Source: Romanomermis culicivorax
Lineage: Eukaryota > Nematoda > Enoplea > Mermithida > Mermithidae
NCBI GenBank assembly: GCA_963922205.1
Contig: CAWUHX010000153.1
Span: 124,001-188,000, forward strand
DNA length: 64,000 bases
Direction of reading: 5' to 3'
Positions 3,010-25,026 of the stretch are shown piece by piece. The notes below the pieces were generated by a model. That model was not told the origin of the DNA. It saw only the letters and a list, made by a program, of their open reading frames with translations, and ran no database searches. The translations under genes were made by a program, and so were the position numbers. How positions within the stretch are numbered: the stretch's first letter is position 1; the number at the start of each line of letters is the position of its first letter.

Positions 3010-4703
3010 AAATCCATTTTCAGAAAAATGGCAAAAGTTATTCAGATACTCTTTGCTTTGTTGGAAGGGCACTGCGATCTAATCCTTTGCTCTATTTTTG
3101 TTTGGCGAACATCACGTGGTGTGAAACGAGATGCCTTCAACTAAAGAGCACTTTCGCACAGCTTATAACATAGGTCATAGTCACAGTCGACATTTATTTT
3201 GTAACATTAAACTCTTAGCTTCAATTTCTTTTCTGGTCAAATTACTGAAAAGATAAATTTTTGATGCATCTCTTCTGAGGCATCCTGTTGTGCAACCATT
3301 GTAAATTAATCGATGAAATTTTTCGAGTGATTCAACTCACATCTTTTATTTTTACTCATCTAATCTGAACATTTTGAATTTTTCCTGCATCTCGTTGATG
3401 GCATATTAAGTGGAGTCAATCAGCATTTTTGTATCAGCTTTCAGAATGTGCAGACACCTACAGCTCCTGAAATGGTACATTTGCCGTATAGGAAAAAAAG
3501 ACGATTTATTGCGTGTTTTTAGTAAGAGATGTAGCAAACATAGAAGAGTGTGCCGAACACTGTAAATGGAACACTTGGAGTGTTTGACAAATTTCACGCA
3601 ATGATAATCGTACACAGGAGATTGAGGGGCTCATAGAGAGCGCTATGTCAATTTTTCCAAGTATCTTCGCTCAGGTCCTCAAAGGTTTTCGGGTGCCGAA
3701 ACTCGGACTGTGCTGACTTACCCAATTACAAATTGAACCCGTTTACTCAAACTATTTTCCAAATAGTTTGACTCACCCTAGACCACACGTTCAAATCACA
3801 ATTTACTAAACTAGAAATACACCGTTCCAATCCCTCAAAAATCGCCACACACTCTAGACACAACTATTCGTCTAAGGCACAGACAACCAGCAATGAAAAC
3901 ATTTTCACAATTTCTTTGATGGTGTAGCCAGGCGTCTTCTAACGTCTTGTCAAGATCTTTCTCAATTAAACTTGCGGATCTTTTCGCAAAACTGACAGGA
4001 ACTTTACAAATACGCCAAATCACTCCACAACACATTAATTTGATTGAAATTTTAACACAATATGTCAGACATTAGTGGCTACAGAAATCAAGAAAAAAAT
4101 TCTGCGGCATCCTTTGGGAAGGTGCCCAAAATAGGCCCCAAAGGACTTTTTCGGTTTATTTTGACATGGGTTTTGACACATTAAAATGAAACAGAAAGTG
4201 TAAAGTAAGAGATTAGAAAGTGTTCTTCATACTGGCATATAGAGCATGGTCTTCTGCATGCATTCAGCATTTGGCTTCAGAGTCACGACTTTTCTAAGCT
4301 GTGATATTTCGAAACACATGTACAGACTGAAAAATGCCCAAAAATGTAAAAATTCCAAACTTTGGAGTACTGCAGCGATGGCAATTTTGACTTTTGCGCA
4401 GAATAAATGCTGTCACAATACTCAGCATGTAAAACTACTCAGAATATCTCTTTTTCAGATATTATTAATTTTCAAATTATCATAAGTCAAGGGAGCAGAG
4501 AGTAGAATCTCTCAGAAATCGTGTCTTAAAAAGTCTAGTAAAGAAACTTATAAATTCATTCAAATTTAACATTGAATTGCACATGTAATTTGCTTTTTTC
4601 CTATAATAATTATCATTATGTTGTAACAGGCACTGTTTTTTCCCCAAATCGTGCTTTTTGGGGGAAAAAATTTGGAAAAGAGAAAAAAATTTTAAGGATC
4701 AAT
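3010..4703. other. non-coding stretch between gypsy and Polinton
   Basis: About 1.7 kb of AT-rich DNA with no supported gene. The short open frames (for example 3835-4035 minus and 4246-4485 plus) have no recognisable motif. A 15-base string near 4632-4646 (CACTGTTTTTTCCCC) recurs inverted to the right of the Polinton near 35,785-35,800. Confidence 0.5.
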
Positions 4704-5335
4704 AGTAAGGCCGGCCCATATAGGTTGTATGGTTAAGCATATACCTATTTTTTGTGTATGACCTATAATTTGTCATTTTTGGCAGATTTATAGGTTGCAT
4801 GGTAAGCATATAAGCTCAATTTTTTGTCCATTTATAAGTTGTATGGTTAAGCATGCAGGTTCTAGGGTTACCATAAACATAGAATTACAGCAATATTTGG
4901 ATTATGGTAATAGTAGAGTTAGGGTAATAGCTGTGTTACTGTAGGTGAAAAACAAAAATTGATGTCGAACAAAAAATGAAAAGAGAAAAACCAAAGTGAA
5001 CAAAAAAATGGAAAAGAAATAAAAAACAAAAAAGAAAGCATGTATAATAACGACTTCCTCTATGGGCAGAGAAAGTCTCTCAAAAATTTGTACCCATGGA
5101 CTTCCTTTGTCAAAAGAGCAAACCTGCAGGTGTAAATATGATCTGAGGTCCCATTCCTGAATGATCAGTCCAGTCAGTAGTTGTCAGATTGGTCAGATTG
5201 ATCAGTAATGGTCTGTTCTATAAGTAAAATCTCGAAAAAGTTTATACTCGATGAAACATCATTCCTACAGGTGCATACATATAGAGTCGATTGCCCTTGG
5301 AAAAATGACCGAGAAGGTCTGTTATAGAAAAAATG
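4704..5335 (+). repeat. left terminal inverted repeat of the Polinton
   Basis: Matches the reverse complement of 34,258-34,879 over about 0.63 kb with scattered substitutions and small indels. The outer part has three imperfect copies of a 22-23 base block (ATAGGTTGTATGGTTAAGCAT and variants) near 4719, 4790 and 4840. The inner 90 bases overlap the end of the capsid-like reading frame, so a piece of coding sequence is part of the repeat. Confidence 0.92.
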
Positions 5336-5697
5336 TCAGATATTATATTTCCATTTAAATAAATTTTGATGTGTTTAAAAAATGTTTTGCCAATCAAATT
5401 AATTGGTCCTACAACGTTACTGGTGGGATTGTTGCTGGCATCCAATGTTAAATTGCAGGCACCACCATTAGCTTTCGTAATTCGAATAGTAAAATATATA
5501 AAAATTTTTGATAAATCTAGCATATATGAATCAGGTGAAATATTAAATTCATATGGTCCCTCATTAGTACAAAGATTTTTGAGTTGAATTTTCCACCAAA
5601 AACTTACATGAATAGCAACCTGTGTCTGAGGTACAGTAAATAAATCTAATTCAGTTTTACTACTACGAGATGATTCAACATCAATAAATTTACTCAT
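5242..5697 (-). pseudogene. Polinton major capsid protein, N-terminal part
   Basis: A 151-codon frame starting with an ATG at 5697. The opening (FIDVESSRSSKTELDLFTVP) and a later EFNISPDS...YMLDLS segment match the start of the Polinton double-jelly-roll capsid protein, known in animal genomes as F54H12.2-like proteins. Usual length is several hundred residues; here the frame ends at a TAA inside the left terminal repeat, about 0.5 kb from the element end. The right terminal repeat carries an inverted copy of the last 30 or so codons without that TAA, running eight residues further to its own stop. The C-terminal two-thirds of the capsid gene is absent from this copy. Confidence 0.75.
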
Positions 5698-5743
5698 TTA
5701 TAATAGATATCCTTGAAACTGACTACTCTACGTGAAGTCTTTT

Positions 5744-6058
5744 TTATGAATGAGGAATTTCGTGATGTTGATGATGATGATCATTATTCAACTTTTTATT
5801 GCTTTTTATATGGACCATAGAATTTATATGTTTATGCTTCCCTAGACCTTTTTTTCTGAATGCCATCACCCGTTTTGTGTAATAAGCTGCTTGCTGCACT
5901 TTGTCCATGCTCAGCAGCACTTTCTTTAAAGGAATGTTAAAAGAATGTCCTTCTACTACATCACCTGAAATTTTAGACCCTGCAGCAAGTGCATGCTTTC
6001 CTGCAGACTTTAACAAAGGCATAACTAGATGCCAAAAACTCTTGAAAAAATTACCCAA
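5744..6058 (-). CDS. small basic Polinton protein, putative minor capsid/core protein
   Basis: A 104-residue intact frame between the penton and capsid fragments, same strand. The N-terminus (MGNFFKSFWHLVMPLLKSAGKHALAAGSK) is a hydrophobic, glycine- and alanine-rich amphipathic helix followed by a lysine-rich middle and a histidine-rich end (HHHQHH). Polintons commonly carry a small protein of this make-up next to the capsid genes, proposed to resemble adenovirus minor capsid or core proteins. That role is inferred from position and composition only. Confidence 0.5.
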   Translation of the reverse strand: MGNFFKSFWHLVMPLLKSAGKHALAAGSKISGDVVEGHSFNIPLKKVLLSMDKVQQAAYYTKRVMAFRKKGLGKHKHINSMVHIKSNKKLNNDHHHQHHEIPHS

Positions 6059-6301
6059 TCCTGCTACCAGGTGTCTATAATAATAAGGAACTAATTATCT
6101 CGAATGCTATGTTGATAAATATTGACCCAGTAATCAACAGTTTCGGAGATATATACTGTATGCATATCTTGCTTCAAATCAAAATTAACGAATGAATGAA
6201 TTAATTAATAAATTGAGAGCATTTGCTAAAATTCAATATGATGACAATGTGTCCAAATGCAAATGAATGAATAAATGCTAGTGAAAATTTGATACTATTT
6301 A

Positions 6302-6818
6302 TCATAGGAATGAAGGAGTACATTGCTGGAAATTTAATTTAACTATAACATTCCCAAATTGGAATGGTATAAATTCATTCACACTGTTTTTTATATTAAA
6401 TTCAAGTACTGTAATTTCTTTTAATTGAATGGGTATATAGTGAGGTATTTCATATAATCGACTTACAAAATCTTTGTATTTTCCCTGCACATTCACAATA
6501 CGTAAAAGTGATGCTAAAGTATTTCCAACAATTTGATTTTCAATAATATCACAGTAAACATAAAAACTTTATAAATCGTTTAAATTTGGTGGTTGAATCC
6601 CTAACATATGTAAATGTTTATTTCCTGGGTCGGCAAGAAAAACAGACTTGGATAGTAGAATATGAGCATTATAAATTTGTGGTTTGTCTGCAACAGTATA
6701 TAGGTTGATATTGACCCTTCTATTTAGAAAATCTTCAGCAGTTGCATCAGAAGCAGTAATAGTAGCACTAAAACCTAGAATCTCCATCAAACAGTTGCTT
6801 AGATCAATTCTACGTTAA
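6302..6818 (-). pseudogene. Polinton penton (minor capsid) protein, C-terminal part
   Basis: The frame holds the conserved penton end: FYVYCDIIENQIVG, LLRIVNVQGKY, IPHYIPI and FQFGNVIVKLNF. An in-frame TAA at 6569-6571 lies just before FYVYCD. Its upstream end stops at the gypsy insertion at 6819-6822; the N-terminal half lies at 20,840-21,242 beyond the insertion, in the same frame once the insertion and one target-site copy are subtracted. The junction also carries a TAA. In intact Polintons the protein forms the capsid vertices. Confidence 0.8.
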
Positions 6819-6822
6819 CTTG
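6819..6822. repeat. target-site duplication CTTG, left copy
   Basis: The four bases directly before the left LTR are repeated directly after the right LTR at 20,836-20,839. A 4 bp duplication fits Ty3/gypsy integrase. Confidence 0.85.
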
Positions 6823-7299
6823 TGTTAGGCTGCTGTGGGGTCAAGATGATGCAACAGTTCTGACCACAGGCTAACAACAACAACAAACTAAAAACTCTCC
6901 CAGACGTTTCACCAGATACTCGCCAGAACTTTCACCAAACCTCAGGCAGAACACCTTGGCACGTACCTCAGGAGATCCTACCCAAGTCTCCACTCCTAAC
7001 CTTATAAACTCCAACCCCTACGCTCATAAAACAATACACTTACAGGTCCAAAATGTATTGGGTGAGGATGGGCGACGCCAAACAAATATTAATAAACAAA
7101 AATATTATATAAAGGTGATGGCAGCGTCGCTCCATAAACTAAATCTTTTTAACACTGACAAACAAACATAAAAATCGTGAAACAGTGGCAGCATAAATCT
7201 ATGCAAATATTTTCTTTCTTTTCGCCACTTTTCGCCACGTCCAACCGCCTGCGCACCGACGCGGGAAGCTGAACACGTGCACCTGGAGCCACCCCAACA
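6823..7299 (-). repeat. 3' LTR of the 14 kb gypsy element
   Basis: 477 bp, same length as the partner at 20,359-20,835 and about 97.5% identical by eye. Terminal TG...CA rule is satisfied. A TATA-like string (TTTATATAA on the minus strand) lies near 7105-7113 and also in the partner, a plausible promoter position for the copy that acts as 5' LTR. Confidence 0.95.
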
Positions 7300-7316
7300 T
7301 CTCTCGGCCCTCAAAA
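7300..7316 (-). other. candidate polypurine tract of the 14 kb element
   Basis: On the minus strand the bases just before the 3' LTR are purine-rich (GAGGG..GAGAGA), the expected site of plus-strand priming. Two pyrimidines interrupt it. Confidence 0.4.
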
Positions 7317-8037
7317 CCGACCAATGGGAGGTGAAAACCTTTCTGCAGCCTGAGTCTCATACTGAGGCCCCGACTGCATAACAGTTTTCCACTCGGAAAA
7401 CAAATTTTTGGGGCTACCCCCTCCAAAATGTGATCCAGCCCCTACGAGGTCCTTCAGGTGACGGCAATTTTGACCAATCCATTCGGCAGGGCACTCCTTT
7501 TCAGGCTACCGGAAACGATCATGAAGGTAGTTCGGCCTGGACTTTGACATTGATCTGTGCCTAGATCCGGGGCGTCACTGTTCCTCTTCTCCCGTGTACT
7601 GGTTTTTACAACGTCGGTGATGAGGTACCCCAGGTGTGCTTCCTCTATGGTCGGCCACTCGCCACATCGCTCCGTCCAATACAAATCTACTCAGTAAAAA
7701 GATTTTCTATAAAATACTTCAATTTTACAAAATAATTTTATAAATGCAATTAAAATTTTCACGTCTTCATCTTTTTCAGGCCCTGAAATTAAACGAGAAA
7801 AAATACGAGGGCTATGTACATGCCCGAAATAAGATGGACGGAAATAACGAATTTCGCCGGGCAACTTTTGGGCACCGGAAACCAGAAAAATTTAAAATTT
7901 AAGACAACAATAAAACAAGATAATATATTTTTTTTGTATTTTGTATTTTATTTGTATTTTTGTATTTTTGTGTTTTTTGAAATAAAATTTGTACGAAATA
8001 ACGAATTTTGGTCCGAAAATTGAGCGGCTATATGAAA
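7317..8037 (-). other. untranslated 3' region of the 14 kb element
   Basis: About 0.7 kb between the end of the third coding region and the 3' LTR. I see no coding motif. A T-rich patch at 7927-7980 is low-complexity. Confidence 0.5.
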
Positions 8038-8525
8038 TTATTGTTGCCCGCCGCCACCATAAGCGCCGTATTGGAAGCTACCACAGCGAGGGTAGGGAAA
8101 TCCCCAAGCTCCACGACCCCTGAGGAATCCTCCAAAAACTCCTCGAGGTTGGGCCGCACAAGGGGGTCCCCCCATCGCCTGACCTCTATACAGTTGCGGA
8201 TTAACCATTTTGAAGGGTCTTCCTTGACCCTGTCCCTGACCTCGGCCTCGGCCATATCCCCCTCCAGTTCCCCTCTGGTACGGGCCCTGAGTGGAACTTA
8301 CAGAAGATACTCCAGAAGCTGAGGTACTGGACCTACCTTGACTTTGCTGATTTGCATATGGTAATTTGAATACTCCAGGCTGGTGCCGACCCTGCGAATG
8401 AGATGATTGTCGCGAGTGCTGGCGCCTAGACCTGGATGTATCCCTAGGTTGCCTTTCCATTAAAATGGGAATCTTGAAGGGTTGCCCCTCCTCATCCTCG
8501 GCTCTGGAACTTTCCAGAAAACTTC
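8038..8525 (-). pseudogene. RG-rich C-terminal tail of the third gypsy ORF
   Basis: In the frame next to the main third-ORF frame, a serine/arginine-rich segment (RSRRQHSRQSSHSQGRHQ) leads into a glycine-arginine region (GGGYGRGRGQGQGQGR) and a GYG-rich end. The upstream frame ends at 8492-8494 and this one overlaps it, so a one-base shift near 8490-8525 joins them, either a mutation or a programmed shift. RG-rich tails commonly bind RNA or single-stranded nucleic acid, which would suit a retroelement particle protein. Function is inferred from composition only. Confidence 0.55.
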
Positions 8526-10048
8526 TGAACCATATCAGACAACCTTCTTTTTGCTGCCATATCCACTGCAGTTTGCTGGTGTTCCTGCATTCGGTTGGCA
8601 TATGCTTCCCTGAATGCAGTACTACCCTCTCCCCGCAAGTAGATAGAATAATATCTCTCCGTCACAAATGATTTGGCCCGTGCATCCACTGCACCAATAT
8701 GTCTTGGGCCCAATTGCTGCTGTTCCAACTTTAGCAACACCATGGTACATAAGTATCTCACGGCTGCCATTACTATTTCCGCATCAAAATGATGAAACCA
8801 ATTTGGCATGAACTTGAGCCAAATATACTCCCAAATGTGCTCAGGAATGTTTATGTGATCATACAGGAAACCACCTTGAAGCTCAAAGTGATCCCCATAG
8901 TTCTCATAAAGCTCCTCTACTCCATTATTCACCAATGCCCAGATGATTTGATTTCTACTATCATCTGGCATATCCTGAGCAAAAAATTTGATCACCTCTG
9001 GTGTCGAAAAATCTATCCTTCCTTTCACCACTGGAAACTTCATATGGACATCCCAGTAGTCTCTCAAAACAGAACTCAGGTACTCCAAAGTTACTTCCTT
9101 ATCTCTACTTCTCTTGACCGATTTAGTCGGTTCCGAGGTAGAGGGTTTAGAAACAACTTTTTTCCCAGAGGAACTGCTTTGGTTCTGCTGAGAAGTCCTA
9201 TCCACTTTAGACACGGGCTTAGCCAAAGTACTTTTCGTCATTGCACTTACCTGAGATGCAGCCGATTTACTAGGTACTTTAGCCGAAGCAACCGTCGACT
9301 GCACTTGACTCGTAGAACTTGTGGTTCCAGGCGTCAGGCTCATTGGCGTAGTTCTAGTCTTGGACTTGGTTGAATCCATCAATAAATTAGTAGATCCAGC
9401 AAACTTCAAGTCCACAGACGTAGAACTCCCTGTCTTTTCTCCTTCATCATCAGTAATTTCAACGACATCTTCATCATCTCTCCTTTTAGCCCTATTGGCC
9501 CTTCGGGCTAACTTCTTCCTTCCTAATCTTTTAATCTGGTCGTCCGTACGACCTTCTGCTCTAAATTTCCTAACCTCCTCGGCGGTATACGTACCTGGTA
9601 TACCACCATCTATTCCTGGATCTCTGGGCGCTACTTGAACTGTCGGCGTAACCTTGCTGATGGCAGGTTGGATGGCCTGCGTACTAGCAGGCTGCGCCGG
9701 CAATTTCGGGATATGATAAGCAGTAGGCGGCTTGGCCGGAGCTTGCAGGACTGTAGGCGCTGCCAGAGGCGTCGGCTGCGCCGTAAAACCAGCCAATACC
9801 TGCTCCAGCTGCTTATGCTGCTGATCTAATCTCGCTTTCTGCTCCGCAAGCTGTTTAACAAAAATCTCTTTCTGCTTTTCGATTTCCCTCTCAGCTTGCT
9901 CCCTGAGTCTTGCTTCAATTTCCTCTATAGTTGGACTTGCAGCAATCATTATCAGATTGCTTTCATCCAACATTTGCTCCGCCCTAACATCCATTCCAGA
10001 AAGTAAACTTTCTGTCTGATCTACCAAAGAGGTTACCTGTGTCTCTTC
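8492..10048 (-). pseudogene. third gypsy ORF, coiled-coil and helical domain
   Basis: Same frame as the exonuclease segment, after a TAG at 10,049-10,051. It opens with a long charged heptad-like helix (IEEIEARLREQAEREIEKQKE, then AEQKARLDQQHKQLEQVLAG), continues through a proline/alanine- and serine/threonine-rich linker with a basic patch (RRANRAKRR), and ends in a compact, probably helical domain of about 170 residues rich in aromatic residues. I do not recognise this last domain. The order coiled coil, basic linker, helical domain, RG tail suggests a self-associating nucleic-acid binding protein. Confidence 0.55.
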
Positions 10049-10051
10049 CTA

Positions 10052-10738
10052 AGGTTGTGTCAATGATTCAACAGTGACCTCCTTGTCCACTTCTAAATCA
10101 TCTCCTACCTGATTCAGATCTATGGGGGTGTTGAGGTCTGCAGGTATGGCTTGTTGCTGTGCTTTCGCCGCAACAGGCTCAGCCTGCATCCCCTGCACCT
10201 GATCAACTCCAGATTGCTGACTCACCGTTGTGCTTACCTCAGTGCCTGTAACCGGCACTGTTGGCTGCTTACCTATCGGCGTCACCACAACCTTGTCGCC
10301 AATATGCATAATTGTAAAACCTGGAGCATTGGACGGCAATATCGGCTCAAAAAATGGCGGTTCATAACCTGGAACATATTCTGGTTGATATGCTAACACC
10401 CTCTTTTTCTGATTCTCCTTTGTAGCATCCTCGCTCATATCTATTGGGTATCGCAAACCTGGCACCCGGACAGCTATTTGACGGAAGTAAAATCTTTGAT
10501 AGCAGTACGGGTTATCTTTGTACTGCGAACATTCCACCAAATGCTTCCTCTTGTCTGCCAGTCTTTGCTCCCACGATTTCGTTTTAGGCCAAAATCGGAT
10601 TGGCAAAAATCCGAAACGATTTCCCCAACATGTAATCGCATCGCCCTTGGTTGGCATATGCACCTCTGTCACTGGAAGACTATTCAAAAACAATAAATAC
10701 TGACCGTACCTATCTCCCCTCCACAACATCTTCAAGAT
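10052..10738 (-). pseudogene. third gypsy ORF, middle segment
   Basis: About 228 codons between two in-frame stops (TAA at 10,739-10,741 and TAG at 10,049-10,051), same frame as its neighbours on both sides. The first 90 residues look globular (WGNRFGFLPIRFWPKT, with several Tyr/Phe and two Cys), the rest is glutamine/valine/proline-rich and probably disordered. No family recognised. Because all three segments share one frame, I read them as one protein of more than 1200 residues interrupted by point mutations, or by readthrough codons. Confidence 0.5.
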
Positions 10739-12283
10739 TTATTCCTTTCCCTCGGGGCTAAAGGATCTCAAATAGTTGTGGTCAAGGAGAGAGGTAAGGT
10801 ACTCTTCTGCTTCCTCTCTACAAGCTGGCCAAAACAAATGAAACGTAAGGGGAAGTTTGTTACATACTGCCTCCAAATTCTTAAAATTGTCCTCAATCAA
10901 TATTTCAGAATAAGGAGCGATATCCATACTCCAGTGTTGTCTTACATACGAGTCTTTATCATTCGATACTCTGACTGGTTCATACTCGTGGTAATCAACT
11001 TCCAGAGATGTTATCTCCAACAACTGCTTAGTTTCTTTCCTATACCTTAGGAAATTCTCATACAAAACCATAGATACTGGTTCATCAAGTCTACTGAAAC
11101 TCTTCCCTCGATTAACCATATCTATCACCTTCTTCATAATTTGAGTTCTAATCTGCTTTTCCAACAAAGCTTCTTCAAACTCTTCATCCTCACTTACCGT
11201 ATCCTTACCGTCCACATTCTTACTTTTCTCCTTGACGATATAATCGGGATGAATACCTTTAGGGATACTTACGTCTCTCCCTCTATTCGAATTTGCCTCG
11301 TAATGAGGGAAGCTGTACTCCGTATAGCCTCCAAATGAGGTGTCCATTTGGGCAGCCATACAGGCATACGCTTCTTGTCTCATTACGTGATAAATAGATG
11401 CTGACTGCATCTCTTCTACTTCTGGACTTCCACAAAAGGTCTGTGGAAAGTTTTCACCATGAACCATATTAAAAAACCTGTACAGCCTGTAAGCCATTAT
11501 CTGAATTTGATCCGCTTTCATCAAATCATGCGGAAAATACTGGAATCTGACCTCGACTTCCATAGCTAACTCATAGTGGAAAAACGCTAGGAAAACCAAC
11601 AATGAGTAGTAGGCGTCCAGTGCTGAATACCTAATTTCAAACTGCCTTAACCTGTGCCTACAGAATCGTTCACGTTGTGCTCTCTGACGGAAATCAATTT
11701 GATAATAACCAATATCCGCCAGATACAGCTCCGTGAACAACCCTTTCAGCTTAAAGGTCTCTGGGCAAAGTCCCAACTTCCTGGACATTGCCAAAAATTT
11801 CCCGTTCAACTGGTCTCCTACCTTGGCTACATCATAATAACGGCCATACGAAGACGCAATTCTATACTTGATCTCCGCTGTCAGATCAACATCTTGGTGA
11901 TTTCTGCCTGCGCCATTAACATTCCAGATGGCAACCAGATCTGTAACCAAGTTGTATCCAACGAGAAGCATGTCCCAATCTAAGAGCTCATGAATGAGCG
12001 TCCATTCCTTCAGCATGATTGTCGTAGTATCTACAACAAAGGTGTCTCCAGTCACCTTCGAGAAGCTAATGACTCTCGCGAACTCCTTCCCTTTTGGGTT
12101 ATCGACCCCAGAAGTCGCGAAAACCTTACTCACATACTCTTGAGTAACTTTCTCCGTATCAAAACGGATAATTGGCTGTCCTCAAAACCTGCTTTCCTTC
12201 AAGGTTTCGATCATCTCAGCCACCTTACCTATTTCGACCATTTTCGGTTCCGTCAATTCCAACGGAAATCTCCCGAAATTCAT
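10739..12283 (-). pseudogene. third gypsy ORF, DEDDy 3'-5' exonuclease domain
   Basis: From an ATG at 12,283 the frame crosses a TGA at 12,182-12,184 and then is open for about 480 codons to the TAA at 10,739. Directly after the TGA comes exonuclease motif I (IIRFDTE, Asp-x-Glu), then VVDTTTI, motif II (GYNLVTDL, with Asp) near 11,940, and motif III (YSALDAY, Tyr-x3-Asp) near 11,617. All four acidic residues and the tyrosine of the DEDDy class (RNase D, WRN, Mut-7 type) are present. About 250 further residues follow with no recognised domain and an acidic patch (SEDEEFEEA). The ORF lies after integrase, where some gypsy elements carry env, but has no signal peptide or membrane anchor. Confidence 0.7.
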
Positions 12284-13620
12284 TGCGAACCATCGTTCTA
12301 ATTCGCCGACTCTGACAATGCGTTTAACATTGTAGTCTAAAAAATTCAGGCGAAATGTTTACAACTTTTTAATGAAAATTTTTTCGAAGCGGACACACAT
12401 CGGTTAATTTCTACCTTCACCACAGATAGTAAGCACAGAAAGGAAAAAAAAATTTGCAAGCAGGGGACAATAAGGTACCAAACATATATTGGGTTAGTGT
12501 TGGCAGATAGTTAAACACAAGTGCGGCCCCGACTTCTACCTTATACGGGAGTACACGCACAGACCACCTGCGTCTTCCATCATTCGACTGCATGCCGTCT
12601 CAATCCAACACCCAAAACTGCCTATCCAACCAATAAATTAAGAATTTCCAAGAAGAAATTTAAAAATATATTTAATAATTTTACCCAAAATGAGGAAATT
12701 CGTTGAAAATTAGATAAAGATGGAATATTTTAAAATTTAAATAAATTTGAAATTATCTACCCCTAGTCGACTAGTTGCTACACTCCACTTCTTCCCCATC
12801 ACATAGACGAATTTATTCAACTCGCTATGTGTGTAGAGGAATAATGTAGTTTCGCAAAAAGTTCAAATCTCGCGCTACGGGCAGCTTTGCCACACTTTTT
12901 CAAGTTTGACAGAACAAATTTGTTCCCACTAAATTTTTACAATTGTCTAGGCCTTCATCTAGACACCCGTGGGCTATAACATCCTGCTTTGCTCAATAAA
13001 TTTTTAGATTAACTAAGTTTAAAAACTTAGGTCGCTTACCATCGACTAAAAAATACAGATTATTTTGCCGCACCTGCGGCTGACCGTAGGTCACGTGGGG
13101 GTCCGTGACCAAATACTGCTTTGTCCGGCGTCCATTGGGGGGCCAGGACATTCCTTCCGCTTCTTTTTCGAATTCTTGTAATTCAGCGCTATCAATTTTC
13201 GAAAGAATTTTTTAATAATTTTTGAGAGCTGAAAAATCGACAAAGTTTCCGCTTTCGCTACTTTTTGTCTATTTTCACTCTAAAACCCAGCGGTTTTCCA
13301 ATTCTTCCAATATTCACAGAATTGGTGGGCAATAACTACTATTTCCTCCGAAAAAATTAATCGGACTCGGGGAAATTTAAAATTTAGGGCTGCGAAAAAA
13401 TTTTAAAAATTTAGGTTTTTTGCGAAGAATGGGTCTTTACCAAAAATTTTTGAAAATTTTACGATTTACGCAGGAAAAATTTAAAAATACACAATAAATA
13501 CGCGATAAATACATAAATAAATACAATTAATTACAATTTGTACTTAATTACAAAATTTGGGACAAAAAATATGGGGGGGGTAATCACACGCACACACACA
13601 CAAAAAAACAGCGCTACGCG
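12284..13620 (-). other. spacer between pol and the third ORF of the 14 kb element
   Basis: About 1.3 kb without a supported gene. It holds a G run and a CA repeat at about 13,572-13,600. A spacer this long suggests that the third ORF is expressed from its own spliced or subgenomic RNA. I could not pick a convincing splice site. Confidence 0.5.
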
Positions 13621-16600
13621 CTACAGCAGTTTATAATTACTGATTTTCGAATCTACAGTAAACTGCGCGTCCTTAGATGACACATCGTTAGACTGCAGCC
13701 ATCTGCTGGTCTCGTAGCGAAAGTGCTTTAACCTGCTCACGGATACCACCTGCTTTTTCAGCCGCTCTCTCCAGTGCGCAATTTCAAGCATGTTTTCTGA
13801 TAATCTGCTATTATCAGTAACAACAAACGGTCCTTGCCACAGCAGACCCAGTTTTTTCTGTTTATCGACTTTCAGCAAAACCCAATCATTGACGGAATAA
13901 TCATGAGCTTTTGCTTTATGGTCAAAAAACTTTTTACTGGTCTCTGCAGCTTTCCTGATATTCTCAGAAATGACTTCATAAGTTTCTACTAAACTTTCGG
14001 TTAGTATATGCTTATAAGCCTCATAGTTCATTGGCAGAACTATATTTCTTGCAACACCAATACTTATGCCAAAATTAGCCTCAGGACCTCTCAACAAGGC
14101 AAATGGAGAACATCTCGTTGAGGTATGAGGTGTGGCATTGTTAGCAAAAACGACAGATTGCAAATATCTGTCCCACTTATCTGAATCTTCTATAGCAACC
14201 TTTCGCAACTGCTTGATCAAGGTTTGGTTAAACCTTTCAACCATTCCATTTCCTTGTGGATGGTAGGCAGTTGTGAGAATCTTTTGACACTCCAATAATT
14301 TACAAACTGACATCATGAGATCAGCTGTAGAGCATGAACCATTATCACTCAACAATTTCACTGGAGTTCCATGCCTGAACACAATATTTCGAAGAAAACT
14401 GTCCACAATGGTTACAGCTGATTGATCTGGAATCATTTCTGCTTCCACCCATTTTGTAAAGTAATCTTGAAATACTATCACATACGGTCTTTTCTCACTC
14501 ATGGCAGAGATTCCCACAATATCCACAGAGACTATGTCAAATGGTCTTCTAGGAATAATAGGATTTAATGGCGGTATAGTAGCCTTTCCTGGAGTTGCAA
14601 TTTGACATATCAGACAAAAGCTGATCCAGCTCCGAGCATCCTTTTCGATGCTCGGCCACCAGAACCGCTTTTTAATAATAGCAAGGGTTCTCTCAAACCC
14701 TTGATGCCTCATCATCACTGCTCCATGATACTGATGTAGGACAACTTTTTTGAGAACAGAGGGGACAACAACTTGATCCTCTGCCTCGCCAAAAGTCTCT
14801 CTATATAGTATCCCTTGATCAATATAAAAGTTACTTTGAGACTTGGTGCCACTATTAGCACCTAGTTTCTCGAAGATCGCTTTTAAATCTTTATCCTTTC
14901 CTTGCAACTGTGACATCAAGGCGTTTGAGGTAAGCCCTTTCCGTCTACCATCTTCAATCTGAGGGGCTTCTTCAAACTCCTTCTCCTTCGGTTCAAAAAT
15001 TCTCTTCACTTCCTCTTTAGGTTTAGTTTGCCCAGGAGGATGTCTTTTATCCTCCTGCTGCAAGTTTTTTGCCGTTTGTCTAGTGACCACCCCCTCAATT
15101 TCATATTTCTCAGGCGTTTGACAATTATCAAATTCTGGAGAAATATTAAGTCGAGTTTCATCACTAACAGCATACTTTGAAGCCACTGAAGCTGTGGCCA
15201 TCTTCACCGAAGTGAAGACTCCTACAGCCTCATCCACTTCATCTCCTCTGAGTTTCCGAAGTTGATTCACTAAAACTTTATTGTTTTGGTTAATGACTTC
15301 GTCTTCAGCAAGAGATTTCACATCTCCCTTCTGAAAGATAAGCTCCCATTTTGGTGGCAACTTCTCTTTCTGTTCATCTGGTTCCTCCTTCCTGGAGAGG
15401 AAATCAGCCATGGCATTCTGTCTGCCAGGCACGTACTCCAACTTGTGATTAAACTGGCAATTGTCATTAGTCTGTGTGTTGACCCTCATTGATAATAAAG
15501 GTTTGTGGTCAGTTTGAATCCTGATCTTTTGACCCAAAAGATAATGTTTATAAATTTTTAGGCCGTATACCACAGCTAAGCATTCCCTTTCGGTGGCGCA
15601 CCATTTCCTTTCTTCCGCCCGCAATATCCGACTATTGTAGGCTATCAGCCAACATTCGGAGTCAGTCTCTTGACATAACACTGCTCCCAATGCAATTCCA
15701 CTGGCATCCGTTTGAAGAATGAATCGCGCAGATCCATCTAAAATTGGATGTCGTAAGAAAGGTACTGAGGTCAATGCTACTTTGAGCTTCTCAAAAGTTG
15801 TGTAATGCAACTCTGTCACATTCCATGTTCCCTTCTTGCCTGTTAATTTGTACAAAGGTTCAGCTAGTGCTGCTAGGTCCGGTATAAATTTCTTACACCA
15901 TTGTAGCATTCCTAGGAATCTTTGCATTTTCTTAACAGAATCCGGGAATGGAAATTCCATTATCGCCTTGACCTTCTTTGGATCCGGAGAAATTCCGTTC
16001 GCATCCAAGATGTGCCCTAAAAAGTGCACCTTCTTGGGAAGAAATTCACATTTCTCTGGCTTAAGAGTCAACTTCGCTTTCCTCAACGCTTCCAGTACCA
16101 ATTTCAAATTCTCTAAGTGTTCCTCGAACGTATTCGAGAAGATGATAATATCATCTATGTACACTAGGCAAATTTTCCATACCAAATCCCCAAGGATTCT
16201 CTCCATCATCCTTTGGAATTCAGCTGGTGCATTCTTTAATCCAAACGGCATCACTTTAAACTGAAACAAGCCTTCCTGGCATATAAAAGCCGTTTTCTCC
16301 TTGCTCTCCTCCTCCATCGGGACCTGCCAATATCCCGACTTCAAATCTAGAGTCCTATAAAACTTAGCTCTTCCAAGGCAATCTAAATAGTCATCCATTC
16401 TCGGGATGGGATATTTATCATCCTTGGTCACTTCGTTTATACCTCTAAAATCAACTACGGGTCTAGTAGTTCCATCTTTCTTTCCAACCAGGAACAGAGG
16501 TGCAGCCCAGGGTGACTTTGAGGGCTCTATCACTCCCTGATCCAACATCTCCTTTATATGTCGCCTCACTCCAGGCCGACTATTAATTGAAGCTCTGTAA

Positions 16601-16740
16601 TATCTCTTTGCTACAGGTCTTGCATCTCCTGTATCTATCTTGCACATCAGAGCTGGGGTTGTAGTAGCCGGATCACCAGGCAAGCTAAAGACATCTCTGT
16701 ACTTCAACAAAGACTCTATAGCTTCCTTTTTCTGAAATTT
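13621..16740 (-). CDS. pol: gypsy Pol: reverse transcriptase, RNase H, integrase
   Basis: An open frame of at least 1029 codons. Order: primer-binding and finger region (PWAAPLFLVGKKDG), palm with VMPFGLKNAPAEFQ and the catalytic YIDD at about residues 184-187, thumb (FLGMLQWCKKFIPDL), RNase H with TDASG, ERECLAVVYGL and TDHKPLL (the stretch between TDHKPLL and LEYVPGRQ looks shorter than usual), HHCC finger, integrase core with all three acidic residues (VSVDIVG, LLSDNGS, MVERFNQTL) and a C-terminal tail (LLWQGPFVV). The gag-protease frame overlaps its start (stop at 16,685); pol lies +1 relative to it, so a frameshift near 16,685-16,745 is needed to make Gag-Pol. Catalytic residues are complete, and this is the best-preserved frame in the element. 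Confidence 0.93.
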   Translation of the reverse strand, partial: KFQKKEAIESLLKYRDVFSLPGDPATTTPALMCKIDTGDARPVAKRYYRASINSRPGVRRHIKEMLDQGVIEPSKSPWAAPLFLVGKKDGTTRPVVDFRGINEVTKDDKYPIPRMDDYLDCLGRAKFYRTLDLKSGYWQVPMEEESKEKTAFICQEGLFQFKVMPFGLKNAPAEFQRMMERILGDLVWKICLVYIDDIIIFSNTFEEHLENLKLVLEALRKAKLTLKPEKCEFLPKKVHFLGHILDANGISPDPKKVKAIMEFPFPDSVKKMQRFLGMLQWCKKFIPDLAALAEPLYKLTGKKGTWNVTELHYTTFEKLKVALTSVPFLRHPILDGSARFILQTDASGIALGAVLCQETDSECWLIAYNSRILRAEERKWCATERECLAVVYGLKIYKHYLLGQKIRIQTDHKPLLSMRVNTQTNDNCQFNHKLEYVPGRQNAMADFLSRKEEPDEQKEKLPPKWELIFQKGDVKSLAEDEVINQNNKVLVNQLRKLRGDEVDEAVGVFTSVKMATASVASKYAVSDETRLNISPEFDNCQTPEKYEIEGVVTRQTAKNLQQEDKRHPPGQTKPKEEVKRIFEPKEKEFEEAPQIEDGRRKGLTSNALMSQLQGKDKDLKAIFEKLGANSGTKSQSNFYIDQGILYRETFGEAEDQVVVPSVLKKVVLHQYHGAVMMRHQGFERTLAIIKKRFWWPSIEKDARSWISFCLICQIATPGKATIPPLNPIIPRRPFDIVSVDIVGISAMSEKRPYVIVFQDYFTKWVEAEMIPDQSAVTIVDSFLRNIVFRHGTPVKLLSDNGSCSTADLMMSVCKLLECQKILTTAYHPQGNGMVERFNQTLIKQLRKVAIEDSDKWDRYLQSVVFANNATPHTSTRCSPFALLRGPEANFGISIGVARNIVLPMNYEAYKHILTESLVETYEVISENIRKAAETSKKFFDHKAKAHDYSVNDWVLLKVDKQKKLGLLWQGPFVVTDNSRLSENMLEIAHWRERLKKQVVSVSRLKHFRYETSRWLQSNDVSSKDAQFTVDSKISNYKLL

Positions 16741-18885
16741 TTGCCTTTGATATCATCTTGCATAGTGAAGTATAAAACTCTACAGAATCAGATTTTGATA
16801 ATGCAGGCATTCCTTCCTTTACCATGCAGGTCTGATATTCCTTTTCCTCCTTTATCTTTTTCAATTCTTTCACCTTCTTGTAAGTATCATCATCTTCAAT
16901 TAACATAGATTCTGTATAGCCAATGATTTGATCTCTCTCAAACCGACAACCAGAACCTGTGATATTGGAGATTAGTACTACAAACTCCTCTTGTGATCCG
17001 TCTACAACCGCTTTCTCCATTCTGAACTTCATTTCAGAATCTTTTGATTCGACAATAATTCCGTTCAACGTGGCATCTCCATGTTGATCCCAAAGTTTTG
17101 CCTTCATCAAAACATCTGTTCCATATGGAATGTAGGTTTTCCCACATGCAACAATTGCAACAGTTGTCTTTAGCAGACAAACTTTTGGATAAACAATTTG
17201 ATTTATGCAATCAGTCGACGACACACTGACTTTAGTCACTTCTTCCATTACCGTTTGCACAGTAGTTACAGAAGGAACTTGAACTGCGTCAATCTTTTTC
17301 TCAATGCCTTGTATGGTCACGGCATTTCTTTTAAAATCAATCACCACACCTAAATCTGGGTGTGCTAAAAAATCTGTGCCCAAGATCAGGTACTCACCTG
17401 CATCTGGCAACACTATAGCATTGACTGGAAATTGTCCGAATTCAGTCTTCATACAAAATGGTACATACCCATAGGCATGCACAATTTTTCCATCAGCTAC
17501 AGTCACTTTGAGGATACGAGGGTACACTGTATAATCAACGTCTAATGCCCTTTTCAAGAGCTTAGAAGACATGACCGTACACTGAGCTCCTGTATCAATT
17601 AAAGCTCTGGTAGCCGTTTCTTTAATAACTACATTTATGTAGAATGGAACTGTCTTCGGATAATTTTCCAACAACCTTTTCTCTATGTCCGTCACTTTCG
17701 TCCCATAATTTACATGAGCCAAATCTCTTTCCTTTACCTTCTCTAGAGGTGTCACCTTATCCAGGTGAATAATACTTCCGAGAACCAAACTTGAAGATTT
17801 GTTTCTACTCTGATCGCTTTCATCATCCACATCCGTACGGCTTGTCACCATTACGTTATGCGAACTAGGTTGCGACTGGTTCGAAACAGATGATCCAGAT
17901 TGATCCTGGACGGTACTAGCCTGAATAGCCGGTTGACTAGTTGATGCAGGTAGCATCAACTGAGGCTGCCTCTGCAACTGGATGCCTTGTTCCCTAAGTC
18001 TGCAGAATTCCCTGTATCTCTCAAATTCTGGGTCATACCTGTACATTTGATCTTCTTCGGGGAATTCTACATAATAGGCACCTCTTCCTCTTCCTCTAAA
18101 TCCAAACTGAGGTCCACCTCTACCTCTAAAACTTCCTCTAAATGAAGCATTCCTATCACCACCATAATACTGATTAGACATGCCACGGTTAAATCCACCG
18201 CGTTGCTGTTGCTGACGCCGGTAAGCTAATGTTTTACACTCCTCTGTAGCATGAGTATTATTCTTATGATATATGCAGTAGGGTCTCTGCTGCTTCAACT
18301 GCTTCTGCTTTTCAGCAGATGCAGTCTTCACAGTAGTCAACTCCTTTAAAGCTTCATTCTGAGTAACTTGTAATTTATCCACTTTCTGAACCAATTGTAG
18401 CCATTCCTTTGAGAGAATAGCTAGAAAAGACTCCTTGGCCTGCTCCTCATTAGACTTTTTGACATCACGAGGTGATGGGCCAGGTTGCATCTCTTCAGCA
18501 TTCTCCTCCCTTCTCTCCTCTTCTACTGCCTTTTGCAACTGATTTTGTGGTCTTGACTTCGTCTGGTTATACTTTTTAGTACTTCCATATGGAGCATTCC
18601 CTACAAAAGCAATATCCTGGCACATCTCCTCCATAGCTACAACTTGATTCACCACAATTGGTTTATCCTTGGCTCCAAAAGTAGTAAACACATTCTTATA
18701 CTTCTTATCAATCTGAGTTAGGGCCTATGCAAGGTCTTGCCAAGTTTTCATCGATGGCAATACGTCCTGCAACTCCGTCTGATATAACGGACTACTTTCA
18801 TAAATAAAGGCATTAATAATATTCTTTTGCCTTACTTGATCAGTCTGATCTGCATAGACCAGATCCACATGATTACTCAACCTTT
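16685..18885 (-). pseudogene. gag-pro: gypsy Gag C-terminus, zinc knuckle and aspartic protease
   Basis: After a frame change near 18,886 the Gag continues here, crosses a TAG at 18,725-18,727 and is then open for 668 codons. Seen in order: a glutamine/lysine-rich helix, a knuckle of the form C-x2-H-x4-H-x4-C (CIYHKNNTHATEEC), an RG-rich segment (SFRGRGGPQFGFRGRGRGAY), and a retropepsin-type protease with the catalytic ALIDTGAQCTV box and the ILGTDFL flap-side motif. The knuckle spacing departs from the usual CCHC. These parts package the RNA and mature the particle. Confidence 0.82.
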
Positions 18886-20331
18886 TTAAAGGTTCCAGAG
18901 CTCTAAGGCTGACTCGTCTTCCTCCTGTTTCATATTGAATAGCTCTCTTTTGAGCATCGTCAAATCATAAGTCGGCGCGAGATACTTTAAAATATTTCTT
19001 CGCGCTTCTGTATAACTTGAGGATGTTCTCGCTATCCTCCTAGCTGTGTTCTGAGACAACCTTCTCAAACACTCCTTTTTGACCTTATCAGCAGTATTCT
19101 CCAGAAATTCACTTTCCAGATCAGTGAAAAATTTCAGCGCCTCCGTCGGCTTTATACTATCATGTAAAGGTCTATGTTTCAAGGCCTTTACCACATCTCT
19201 CACATCCACTTCTACACTTGAGCTAGAGTTCGATGTAGATGAACTGTTATTATCACTATCTGAGTAATGTCTACTCCTAGCTCTTGATCTGTGAGATCTC
19301 TTTCTACTCTTTGACTTCCTCTTTTTCCTCCTCTCAGGGCTAAGGTCAGCTCTATTGGCGGTATCTCTCCAAGGAATGGGACGAGAAAATCTGTCCTCTC
19401 CCTGGGACGATTTGTCGCGGATAGTCACTTTCCTTTCCCTAGACCTCCTATTCTCTGAGTAACCGTAGGCATTCCATTGTGCTTGTTCAGCATTCCTCGA
19501 ACTCTGGGGCTCCTCAGTCCAACCTCTATCTCTACTTGAATATTTGTCTCTATCCTCTTGAGACCTTACATAAACCTCTGAATGAACCTCTCTCTTAGGT
19601 TCACTTACTCTTTCAACTCTATTCACAATGTAAGAAGACTCACCTATCTTCTTCCATTCACCTTCTTCCATTTCCTTTTCTCGAATTTGCGCGCTTTGGA
19701 TAACTTTGATCGATAATTCGACTTTCTTCTCCAGCGCGTTAATTCGTAAATCCTTGGGATCGACTCGATCCCTTTGCTCCTCTCATCGGATAAAATTCGC
19801 CATTTCGGGGTCATATCGCCTCGAATATTTATCCTCGTATAAATCGGCGGGCGGGTCCTCGTAATATTCGTCGTAATTCATGTCCACCATATTTGACCTC
19901 CACCCCGGTTTCGACTTCCGTCTAATCTCCTCCAGCGTTTTGGCCATCGGATGGACCAACTTTGGGGGCGACGTTGGTCTCTCTCTCTCAAAGGTCTGCT
20001 GACCTTTGACACTACCACTTACAGTAGTTTCAATCTCGGCTTGCCTAGCCATCTCAAAACTACTTCTCCTCAACTCTTCTTCTGTTCTTGCCACTCCAGC
20101 AATTCTACTCTCTCTCCTTCCTTCAGTCTCAGGCGCCTGTGCTTGAATCTGTTCTACCACTGCGTGTTCTTCAGCAGAGTGGAGATTCGAAACACTAGGT
20201 TCATGTGACCTAGGAGGAGTTCTCAACGTTTTTCCTACTGGAATACTCATTTTCTTAATTTTTCCGGTATGTGCCTGCAAATAAAATCCAGGAGGTTTAG
20301 TTATTTTTCTGGTGGTTCTCCGTTTATCCAT
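18886..20331 (-). pseudogene. gag: gypsy Gag, N-terminal and capsid-like part
   Basis: Starts with ATG at 20,331, 28 bases inside the 5' LTR, and runs 182 codons to a TGA at 19,783-19,785; the same frame then continues to 18,886. The N-terminal part is proline- and charge-rich; an arginine/serine stretch (RKKRKSKSRKRSHRSRARSR) precedes a helical region (ALKFFTDLESEFLENTADKV) that resembles retrotransposon Gag capsid domains. A frame break near 18,886 leads into the zinc-knuckle frame. Gag would form the particle in an active copy. Confidence 0.75.
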
Positions 20332-20340
20332 CGTGAGAGG

Positions 20341-20358
20341 CGTTAAGAGTCCACCACT
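20341..20358 (-). other. candidate tRNA primer-binding site
   Basis: The first bases inside the 5' LTR on the minus strand contain TGGTGGACTCTTAACG, which begins TGG as expected for a site complementary to a tRNA 3' CCA end. I could not assign the tRNA. Confidence 0.5.
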
Positions 20359-20835
20359 TGTTAGGCTGCTGTGGGGTCAAGACGATGCAACAGTTCTGAC
20401 CACAGGCTAACAACAACAACAAACTAAAAACTCTCCCAGACGTTTCACCAGATACTCGCCAGAACTTTCACCAAACCTCAGGCAGAACACCTTGGCACGT
20501 ACCTCAGGAGATCCTACCCAAGTCTCCACTCCTAACCTTATAAACTCCAACCCATACGCTCACAAAACAATACACTTACAGGTCTAAAATGTATTGGGTG
20601 ACGATGGGCGACGCCAAACAAATATTAATAAACAAAAATATTATATAAAGGCGATGGTGGCGTCGCTCCATAAACTAAATCTTTTTAACACTGACAAACA
20701 AACATAAAAATCGTGAAACAGTGGCAGCATAAATCTATGCAAATATTTTCTTTCTTTTCACCACTTTTCGCCGCGTCCAACCGCCTGTGCACCGACGCCG
20801 GAAGCTGAACACGTGCACCTGGAGCCACCCCAACA
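20359..20835 (-). repeat. 5' LTR of the 14 kb gypsy element
   Basis: 477 bp, TG...CA ends, about 97.5% identical to 6823-7299. In the minus-strand reading this is the upstream LTR and would hold promoter and transcription start. Confidence 0.95.
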
Positions 20836-20839
20836 CTTG
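20836..20839. repeat. target-site duplication CTTG, right copy
   Basis: Exact match to 6819-6822, defining the insertion boundaries. Confidence 0.85.
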
Positions 20840-21242
20840 TACCACTTTGTTTTTTCAAATTAACCAATCCTCATCTGTGTTCATTATATGAAAACATGAT
20901 TTCAATGTCTGTTCCTGCAATTGCTGCTCCAATTTTTGCATTCAATTCATTAATTAAATCAGCTACATTAAGGTAATGTTTTTCAAAGACTATAACTTTA
21001 ATTTCTTCAACAGGTTCATCTTCATTTCCAACACCACTCATAATTAAAGTTATTACATTTTGACCACCATAGTTGGAAAATGTAGCATAGCTATAGGGGT
21101 ATATTATTTGACTTAACCCCAATTCCCAAATGCCATCTAGCTTCAAATGGTAGTGTAGATGGGCTGAAAAATCTGGGGGTATGTTTCCATATTCACAATT
21201 ACTAGGTAAAGTGATATAAAATTGATTGTCAAAGGTTGTCAT
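20840..21242 (-). pseudogene. Polinton penton (minor capsid) protein, N-terminal part
   Basis: ATG at 21,242. The opening (FDNQFYITLPSNCEYG) and the GIWELGLSQIIYPYSYA block match the start of Polinton penton proteins. A TGA at 20,871-20,873 ends the open frame; the same frame runs 10 more codons to the gypsy insertion. Its start overlaps the end of the upstream membrane-protein gene by about 14 bases, a typical tight Polinton spacing. Confidence 0.78.
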
Positions 21243-21531
21243 TATTTATAATATTAGCTGTTGTGGGTATTGTCTTCAATGAGTTAGGTGAGGGTAACAG
21301 TCCTGGTATGGGACTAGGTAATAAATATCCTATACAAGCGCACAATAAGCCAACCCACAATTGTGTATTATTATTGTAGACAGATAAGTTTATTATAGCT
21401 GTAATGACTACAATGTATATTAGTATGATCTGACTAAAGAACACCACTTCGTTTCGTGGTAGATCATATCCAAAAAACTCCCAAACACTGAGGGGAGATG
21501 TTTCCGAAGTTGTGCTAATACTACTATCCAT
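21229..21531 (-). CDS. Polinton two-span membrane protein
   Basis: ATG chosen at 21,531 (MDSSISTTSE), giving 100 residues. It has the conserved FGYDLPRNEVVFFSQIILIY block, with a first hydrophobic span (IILIYIVVITAIINL) and a second (LWVGLLCACIGYLLP). Small proteins with this FGY...YLLP arrangement sit beside the penton gene in many animal Polintons; their function is unknown. The frame is intact, unusual in this copy. Confidence 0.6.
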   Translation of the reverse strand: MDSSISTTSETSPLSVWEFFGYDLPRNEVVFFSQIILIYIVVITAIINLSVYNNNTQLWVGLLCACIGYLLPSPIPGLLPSPNSLKTIPTTANIINNDNL

Positions 21532-21684
21532 TTCAAAATAAAAATTTTTATTTAACAATAAGCTAAATAATTATAAATTTTATAAAAAAAGCAGAGCTAA
21601 TAAAAGTTACCAATAAAATTACACAAAGATACATGAAGAAGGTGATATAAACTTTTACAAGCACATACATAACTTTTTTTGCAA

Positions 21685-22125
21685 TCAACTGTTTACAGAA
21701 AATTTACAATGAAAAAACTTACAAACTAATTTATCATTATAAGCAAAACTTGTATTATTAAAACTTTTAAACATTTTATACCTAGGAACCTGTCGCGCTT
21801 TATAATACAAAAAATACAAAGTATATATACTGCAAACTCTAATATAGAAGTTATGTAGGTGTTTCTTATTTATGTGTCTTACTGTAGCATTCTTGTTAAT
21901 ATAGTTTATAAAAGCAGGAATATTTGGTGGTAAACCATATGAATCAAAATACAATACAGAGTTATCATCATCAAAATACATGGCCATCCTATGCCTTCCT
22001 TTTTGAAAAGATGTACCAATGTTTGCAATTAATGCTGCAGGTCTTCTAACTATCTCTGGTAATGTATAGCAAGTAAAAATCCCAAGAAAAATTCTTGATA
22101 AAATTGCATCTTGTTGAACCTAGTA
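21685..22125 (-). pseudogene. PRO: Polinton adenain-like cysteine protease
   Basis: Reading back from about 22,125, the frame gives FLGIF...LP, ALIANIGTS, then RHRMAMYF with the catalytic-type His, FDSYGLPP with the Asp, and a Cys in RVCSIYTLYFLYY. This is the order His, Asp, Cys of the adenovirus/ULP1-type protease that matures Polinton capsid proteins. The usual Trp after His is Arg, and the usual Cys-Gly after the last strand is Cys-Ser. A TAG near 22,120 interrupts the N-terminus. Probably inactive. Confidence 0.72.
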
Positions 22126-22132
22126 TGCCAAT

Positions 22133-23190
22133 TCAAAGTTGTTCATTGTAGTCATCATTTTGTATCTCCTTTTCTAAAATCCAGCTGTTGAATTTTTCAG
22201 GATAACCCCACCACTTCACAACTACTCCATTTTGACGGCATGGTAAACGTTTAGTTTTTAAAATCTTTTCAATTCTGATTACTTTGATATCGGAGTTGAA
22301 AACAATTTTCTGTAACTCTTTTTCATAAAAATGTCCTTCTATATCCTCACCTTCCAAATCCTGAATTCCATCAAGTATTTGATTTCTAATCTTCACAATT
22401 TGTTTTACCCTAAAAGCTTCTCCACTCCATTGACATAAATAACCTTTGTCGAACAGGCCTCTATGCTTACTAATTAATACATAATCCCCTATATCAATCT
22501 TAGATTTTCTAGTGTATGAGCTTTTGGGGTAATAATTTTTTCATTAGAATAATCCACATTAACAGGTTTTTCACTAATTGATCTATGAATAGAATGATTA
22601 TAATTCGAAACAACTGCTGATGAAATATTAATCCCTTTATAAGTGGTAAATTCAGTAAAATGTTTAAACAATTTAGTTTCCATGGTTCTATTAAAACCAT
22701 TTTACTACTGAACATTTTATGTCTTCCTTCTGGGAAGTGAAAAAATGTATATCATTAGCTTTTAATAATTTTTGGAAATCTTTGTTGACAAATTCTTTTC
22801 CTTTATTGCTGCACACTCTCCAAGGGATTCGACCTCTTTTTAAAATATTTTGAAAAGCATCACATACATTCTTTGCATGTTTTGACTTTAATGGTTCAAC
22901 CCATGCATGTTTACTTAACACATCTATACATGTAAACATAAATTTATATCAATCCTTAAAATCTACTAGAGAAGACATATCAGCCAAATCAATTTCCCAT
23001 TGTTGATCCATAGCTGTAACATAAATACAGTTACGTGAAAACTTTTTGTTGACTTGCTTATGTAGGGTGTAACTATGTTGTTTTGAGAGCCAATCTATAA
23101 CATTTTTACCTGTAATTGTTTTATAGTGTTTTCTAGCCTCAACATATAATTTTTCTATACTAGAAAAGGCTGTAGGATTTCCATGTTAAT
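22133..23190 (-). pseudogene. INT: Polinton retroviral-like integrase with chromodomain
   Basis: N-terminal part at about 23,190-22,960 (KLYVEARKHYKTI, WLSKQHSYTLHK, DLADMSSL), then the catalytic core at 22,939-22,691 (FTCIDVLSKHAWVEPLKSK), a linker, and a chromodomain at 22,396-22,133 (VVVKWWGYPEKFNSWI). The family is known in databases as F54H12.3-like. The first catalytic Asp is present; the second position reads Asn (SNKGKEF), and the third, normally VVERF, reads VVKWF with Glu lost. Stops and a frame change break the gene. It cannot catalyse integration. Confidence 0.85.
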
Positions 23191-23239
23191 TTTTGTACAA
23201 TTTCAAAAGTAAGCTATTAATTGTTCTAGTACAAAGGAG

Positions 23240-24065: not shown

Positions 24066-24066
24066 T

Positions 24067-24850: not shown

Positions 24851-25026
24851 CCTCAAATAAAAATAAAATTATAATGTAATAAGTAGGTAGAATAGATATA
24901 AAATTTTTATCTTTTACTTTATTTTGTACCATTCTGACAAAAACTTCAAATGCTGCCAAGCTGATATTGTAATTAATCCTAAACAACCAAATTATAGAAA
25001 ACAACCAACCTCTTTGAAAATTTCGA

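Follow-up and report, generated by a model that had tools for sequence, protein, structure and literature searches.

A Ty3/gypsy-type LTR retrotransposon of Romanomermis culicivorax with a third coding region that probably specifies a DEDDy exonuclease domain

Does the LTR retrotransposon in this stretch of DNA, from a nematode that parasitises mosquitoes, encode a DEDDy 3'-5' exonuclease of its own, and is the coding region in question part of the element or a private acquisition of one copy? An earlier note had described a gypsy element of about 14 kb with an exonuclease-like third coding region, referred to here as ORF3. The window, meaning the whole 64,000-nucleotide stretch that was analysed, does hold such an element: a Ty3/gypsy-type LTR retrotransposon of 14,013 bp on the minus strand (6823-20835), with an LTR pair, a CTTG target-site duplication and gag, protease and pol frames (Table 1). 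The LTRs agree at 465 of 477 positions (97.5%), with nine transitions, three transversions and no gaps between them, and their TG...CA ends together with the short target duplication are those of Ty3/gypsy LTRs. Pfam domains follow the Ty3/gypsy order as well, running from protease through reverse transcriptase and RNase H to integrase, and the integrase ends in WQGPF, by eye a GPY/F-like motif; rotifer elements, too, have a GPY/F motif according to the accessible part of PMC5408684. The Pfam scan returned no family at the cut-off for the gag frame, and no dUTPase family up to an E-value of 1 for the protease and pol frames.

Table 1. Coordinates of the LTR element and of ORF3 within the window
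Feature	Position	Strand	Remarks
5' LTR	20359..20835	-	477 bp, TG...CA ends
3' LTR	6823..7299	-	477 bp
Target-site duplication CTTG, left copy	6819..6822	.	
Target-site duplication CTTG, right copy	20836..20839	.	
gag (by position)	18886..20376	-	single frame, in-frame stop 19785-19783
Frame with zinc-knuckle-like and RG-rich stretches (both by eye) and aspartic protease	16685..18724	-	PF13975 E 2.5e-9
pol: reverse transcriptase, RNase H, integrase	13621..16752	-	PF00078 E 7.7e-39, PF17917 1.2e-26, PF17921 1.6e-16, PF00665 5e-11
Stretch without long frame, pol to ORF3	12337..13620	-	ends in T-rich tract and AG at 12338-12337
ORF3	8495..12358	-	single frame, 1,288 codons, 3 in-frame stops
Probable DEDDy exonuclease-like domain (207 aa)	11560..12181	-	motifs; PF01612 E 0.034, 14.4 bits, cut-off 23.6
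ExoI motif FDTE	12152..12163	-	
ExoII motif YNLVTD	11939..11956	-	
ExoIII motif YSALDAY	11609..11629	-	inside PF01612 match
RG-rich frame	8038..8661	-	probable ORF3 end in another frame

Among the best 120 of 3,221 matches to pol, the closest is P0008, which is 64% identical over 88% and lies on a contig of 10,055 bp. Neither pol nor P0008 had relatives in the viral-contig collection, and P0008 had none in the genome-contig collection. By eye, the zinc-knuckle-like stretch ahead of the protease reads C-x2-H-x4-H-x4-C, not C-x2-C-x4-H-x4-C, and the second position is likewise a histidine in P0003, a relative from R. culicivorax.

By its coordinates ORF3 is enclosed by the LTRs, shares the strand of pol and follows integrase, just as the earlier note had it; its place in the element is that of env. 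The extent proposed there (10739..12283) needs correction, as the frame runs from 12358 and continues past stops to 8495. Its in-frame stops (TGA at 12184-12182, TAA at 10741-10739 and TAG at 10051-10049) leave stop-to-stop pieces of 480 aa (12181-10739), 229 aa (10738-10049) and 518 aa (10048-8492), with the first stop sitting immediately ahead of FDTE. By chance, about 60 stops (3 in 64 codons) would be expected over the frame, versus the three present; given the 2.5% divergence of the LTRs, it would be unsurprising if a frame of 3.9 kb had gained a few stops. G+C at the three codon positions is coding-like in ORF3 (0.48/0.32/0.46), as opposed to 0.36/0.39/0.34 in the gap between pol and ORF3. 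ORF3 is decayed in the present copy, which cannot yield the full protein unless the stops are read through, and no second ORF3 copy was found within the window.

The start of the frame offers no in-frame ATG, and the frame opens directly after a T-rich tract and an AG, which together resemble a 3' splice site. These two features point to a spliced mRNA, and ORF3 is likely translated from such a message; rotifer ORF3s are typically expressed from spliced messages as well, according to the accessible part of PMC5408684. The 1.3 kb between integrase and ORF3 contain no frame of 100 aa or more, and this gap is longer than a splice acceptor needs. Further downstream, a heptad-like charged helix is seen by eye near position 9,900, and the RG-rich frame is probably part of the ORF3 protein. 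None of the ORF3 pieces has a 19-residue stretch with a hydropathy above 1.6 (maximum 1.58), and four pieces contain 0, 0, 1 and 1 N-glycosylation sites, the 480-aa frame having none. An env identity was considered for ORF3 and rejected, given the lack of a strong membrane span and the few glycosylation sites.

The motifs FDTE, YNLVTD and YSALDAY, which the earlier note had read in DEDDy order, could all be located on the minus strand within the one open frame of 480 aa. The five DEDDy residues follow in order (D8, E10, D81, Y185 and D189), so that ORF3 displays D-x-E, N-x3-D and Y-x3-D in this order. We wrote a strict pattern of the three motifs from the family consensus, after the motifs had been seen. 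It has one occurrence in the window (six frames, open stretches of at least 120 aa); when the 480 aa were shuffled 20,000 times it turned up in 1 case, and ten shuffled windows did not contain it. A loose pattern, limited to the acidic spacing, has two occurrences in the window but also fits 1,234 of 20,000 shuffles, and by itself is therefore weak evidence.

The earlier note had named PF01612 as the family to be expected, and Pfam matched it weakly: PF01612 is the best or sole Pfam family on four of six ORF3 pieces, with E-values of 0.068 (260 aa), 0.034 (207 aa), 0.059 (140 aa) and 0.024 (90 aa), while the whole 480-aa frame gives no match, a result that neither refutes the domain reading of the note nor settles it. 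Each of the matches lies over ExoIII; in the 207-aa piece, residues 131-197 align to profile positions 113-165 of 173. The best score, 14.9 bits for the 90-aa piece, stays below the curated Pfam cut-off of 23.6 bits. No PF01612 match was obtained on the N-terminal 117 aa, which hold ExoI and ExoII, in the relatives P0004, P0005 and P0007, which are without ExoII and ExoIII, or in any of 23 other window frames scanned (limits E 1, 0.1 and 1). Because the family had been named before any search, the E-value may be read as a single-family probability, which comes to about 1.4e-6 (0.034 divided by 24,736 models), or about 8e-6 counting six pieces, both figures being arithmetic from the HMMER E-value without a shuffle check against the PF01612 profile.

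Other searches returned little. Three ORF3 pieces had no match in a PDB sequence search and two had none in NCBIfam; in PHROGs, the 207-aa piece had a single match, to a protein group without assigned function (E 0.13), and the 90-aa piece gave none. A home-made DEDDy profile, built from five bacterial-type sequences (RNase D of E. coli plus four relatives from the PDB), scored 3.6 bits on the domain with its alignment at ExoIII, a value reached by 113 of 20,000 shuffles; controls were 143 pieces taken from the remaining window frames, of which 104 were scored, the best at 2.0 bits. By itself, this profile provides no support for the DEDDy call. Two AlphaFold models, one of the 260-aa piece alone and one of the 480-aa frame with six partial relatives, had low confidence (mean pLDDT 42.9 and 37.9) and were nearly all helical, as opposed to the alpha/beta fold expected. 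Judging from motifs and profile matches, we consider the N-terminal part of ORF3 very probably a DEDDy domain, and we are less confident that this domain is catalytically active.

Comparison with other R. culicivorax sequences bears on the ownership of ORF3. Seven database proteins match it, all of them gene predictions from R. culicivorax (P0001-P0007, E 1.2e-80 to 2.4e-3), with no rotifer protein among them; the viral-contig, genome-contig and phage collections contained no ORF3 relatives. P0003 matches, in order, the zinc-knuckle frame (18673-18605 and 18451-18152, 83% and 71% identity), pol (15048-14812, 77%) and ORF3 (11383-11108, 75%), so that ORF3 is as conserved in this relative as the zinc-knuckle frame and pol. 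P0006 displays the same order at lower identity, with 55% in the zinc-knuckle frame (18138-17998), 62% in pol (14958-14881) and 50% in ORF3 (11386-11114), the pol part comprising just 26 aa (E 1.1e-4). The combination of zinc-knuckle-frame, pol and ORF3 parts in these two relatives bears out the earlier claim that ORF3 belongs to the element, and contradicts a private capture.

The relatives also illuminate the broken frame. P0004 retains FDTE and aligns to 12322-12125, through the site of the first stop, with further alignments at 10882-10748 and 9997-9521, and ORF3 stretches are joined in the gene models P0001, P0002, P0004, P0005 and P0007. This indicates that a version open at this site exists elsewhere and that the ORF3 pieces form one gene. 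P0001, P0002, P0003 and P0006 all cover a region near 11383-11117, where they are 50-80% identical to the window; as they overlap in ORF3 and yet differ, there are at least four other ORF3 versions. None of the seven protein relatives covers ExoII or ExoIII. On the evidence of these predicted proteins, ORF3 is not private to the present copy.

The earlier note had known of no standard gypsy element with such a domain downstream of integrase, and in general this impression proves wrong: in bdelloid rotifers, the LTR elements Juno and Vesta carry an ORF3 of RNase D-like DEDDy type (Rodriguez, Kenefick and Arkhipova 2017; PMC5408684). The nematode case is a further instance of this rare but known kind. 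As far as the accessible part of that paper goes, the rotifer LTR elements acquired such ORFs at least twice, DEED replaces DEDD in them, and the ORFs display no significant departure from neutrality. Both Juno/Vesta and the nematode element are gypsy-like LTR elements of PR-RT-RH-IN order in which the env position is taken by a DEDDy ORF of the RNase D type without a membrane span, the profile match of the nematode ORF being weak. They differ in host phylum (Rotifera versus a nematode), in the dUTPase that the rotifer elements carry between PR and RT and that was not detected in the nematode element, and in the motif, which is DEDD in the nematode ORF3. Moreover, the nematode ORF3, with its 1,288 codons, has a long C-terminal part with an RG-rich end and a stretch that by eye is coiled-coil-like; for the DEDDy ORFs of rotifers, the accessible part of PMC5408684 states that coiled coils are absent.

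Related DEDDy ORFs are carried by the Athena elements of bdelloids (accessible parts of PMC5408684 and PMC6431247). The Athena/Terminon elements share with the present case a retroelement-associated DEDDy ORF, but are Penelope-like in their reverse transcriptase class and not LTR elements. Dada DNA transposons likewise have a DEDDy exonuclease domain of their own, which, in the accessible part of PMC3706591, lies within the transposase. With the cellular RNase D, Mut-7, WRN and Rrp6 proteins (PF01612), ORF3 shares the ExoI-III motifs and the catalytic residues; it differs from them in scoring below the Pfam cut-off and in having no sequence match to solved structures. In open-licence literature, among the titles and abstract beginnings of the matches listed, we found none that reports an LTR element from nematodes with a DEDDy ORF.

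ORF3 is most likely an accessory RNA-directed 3'-5' exonuclease, with both substrate and activity predicted from sequence. The lack of a strong membrane span, the RG-rich end and the heptad-like helix favor an RNA-bound accessory nuclease that acts on the RNA or cDNA ends of the element. More specifically, ORF3 may be best explained as an accessory gene owned by an element family of R. culicivorax, or of a very near relative, and placed in the env position. Its protein would be made from a spliced mRNA and have the fold of a DEDDy 3'-5' exonuclease in the N-terminal domain; through the long, RG-rich-ended C-terminal part it would stay attached to the RNA of the element, and there it would trim 3' ends of RNA or cDNA intermediates of the element. 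We give this reading as a whole a probability of roughly 45%. According to the accessible part of PMC5408684, DEDDy relatives shorten structured RNAs from the 3' end, and single-stranded DNA may be a further substrate.

ORF3 could also be no exonuclease at all, but a fast-evolving env-like or structural protein in which the motifs arose by chance. The PF01612 match is weak and absent on the whole frame, the home-made profile is not significant, the AlphaFold models are of low confidence and the loose spacing is common among shuffles. The strict pattern, however, is rare among the same number of shuffles, the match is to a family named in advance and is in register with ExoIII, and the hydropathy and glycosylation counts do not resemble those of an env protein, which leaves this explanation quite improbable. 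That ORF3 is a passenger host gene, recently captured by a few copies and without a role for the element, would agree with its broken state in the present copy. Four different sequences nevertheless share an ORF3 stretch, and P0003 and P0006 join it with other parts of the element; we regard a passenger as very improbable indeed.

Two further alternatives accept the domain and assign it another task. A catalytically silent RNA-binding domain, comparable to Maelstrom and EXD1, might serve in packaging or localisation. The RG-rich end of ORF3 is consistent with this, as are the dead DEDD derivatives of metazoan piRNA proteins and the DEED motif of the rotifer ORF3s, both taken from the accessible part of PMC5408684. 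The present copy, however, has the four acidic residues and the tyrosine intact, and FDTE is kept in P0004, and we judge a silent domain on balance unlikely. Mut-7- and Nibbler-type DEDDy proteins act in small-RNA pathways. With such relatives, an ORF3 exonuclease could act in counter-defence, degrading or trimming the small RNAs with which the host silences the element, or the precursors of these RNAs. Mut-7 is discussed in the accessible part of PMC5408684, and an arenavirus DEDDh exonuclease participates in the suppression of innate immune signalling, as stated in partly accessible literature. Against this, the accessible part of the literature reports R. culicivorax to be without PIWI, and 5'-triphosphate small RNAs to be undetected there, which narrows the possible targets to other small RNAs; counter-defence appears rather unlikely to us.

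Should the accessory exonuclease be real, at least two animal phyla would have LTR elements with a DEDDy ORF3; this would argue that the domain is useful to retroelements and not a rotifer oddity. A multi-copy family in a nematode with sequenced genomes would also allow a direct test of selection, a point left open in rotifers. A bolder scenario, which we find unlikely, is that a lineage of nematode LTR elements acquired a DEDDy exoribonuclease without any link to the rotifer cases and fused it to an RNA-binding tail, and that the protein, still catalytically active, would act on the RNA or cDNA ends of its own element or against small-RNA silencing, in a worm reported to be without piRNAs.

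The surroundings of the element display several features of their own. It is enclosed by minus-strand frames at 20871-26123 and 5242-6814, which we take to resemble a Polinton/Maverick, and the LTR element may have inserted into one; polintons reportedly make up 6.5 Mb in R. culicivorax. These flanks include, on the minus strand, a retroviral-type integrase core at 22694-22948 (PF00665, E 3.6e-9) and a chromodomain at 22136-22540 that falls just below the cut-off (PF00385, E 9e-5). The other flanking frames are capsid-, protease- and ATPase-like by eye; Pfam matched none of these, and the frame at 5245-5697 had no relative in the viral-contig collection. A second gypsy-type pol fragment lies on the plus strand at 695-2430, with RNase H and integrase, the C-terminal part of the latter recognized by eye. 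An HMG-box gene on the minus strand at 55394-56551 (PF00505, E 9.6e-28) is SOX-like (SOXp, E 0.034, below the cut-off). Repeats comprise an inverted pair of about 635 bp at 4700-5335 and 34258-34883 (about 86% identity), one end of which overlaps the frame at 5242-5697, a direct pair of about 148 bp at 33105-33252 and 48045-48191 (84% identity), and a 75-bp unit present three times in tandem at 28357-28581, with 83% and 72% identity to the first.
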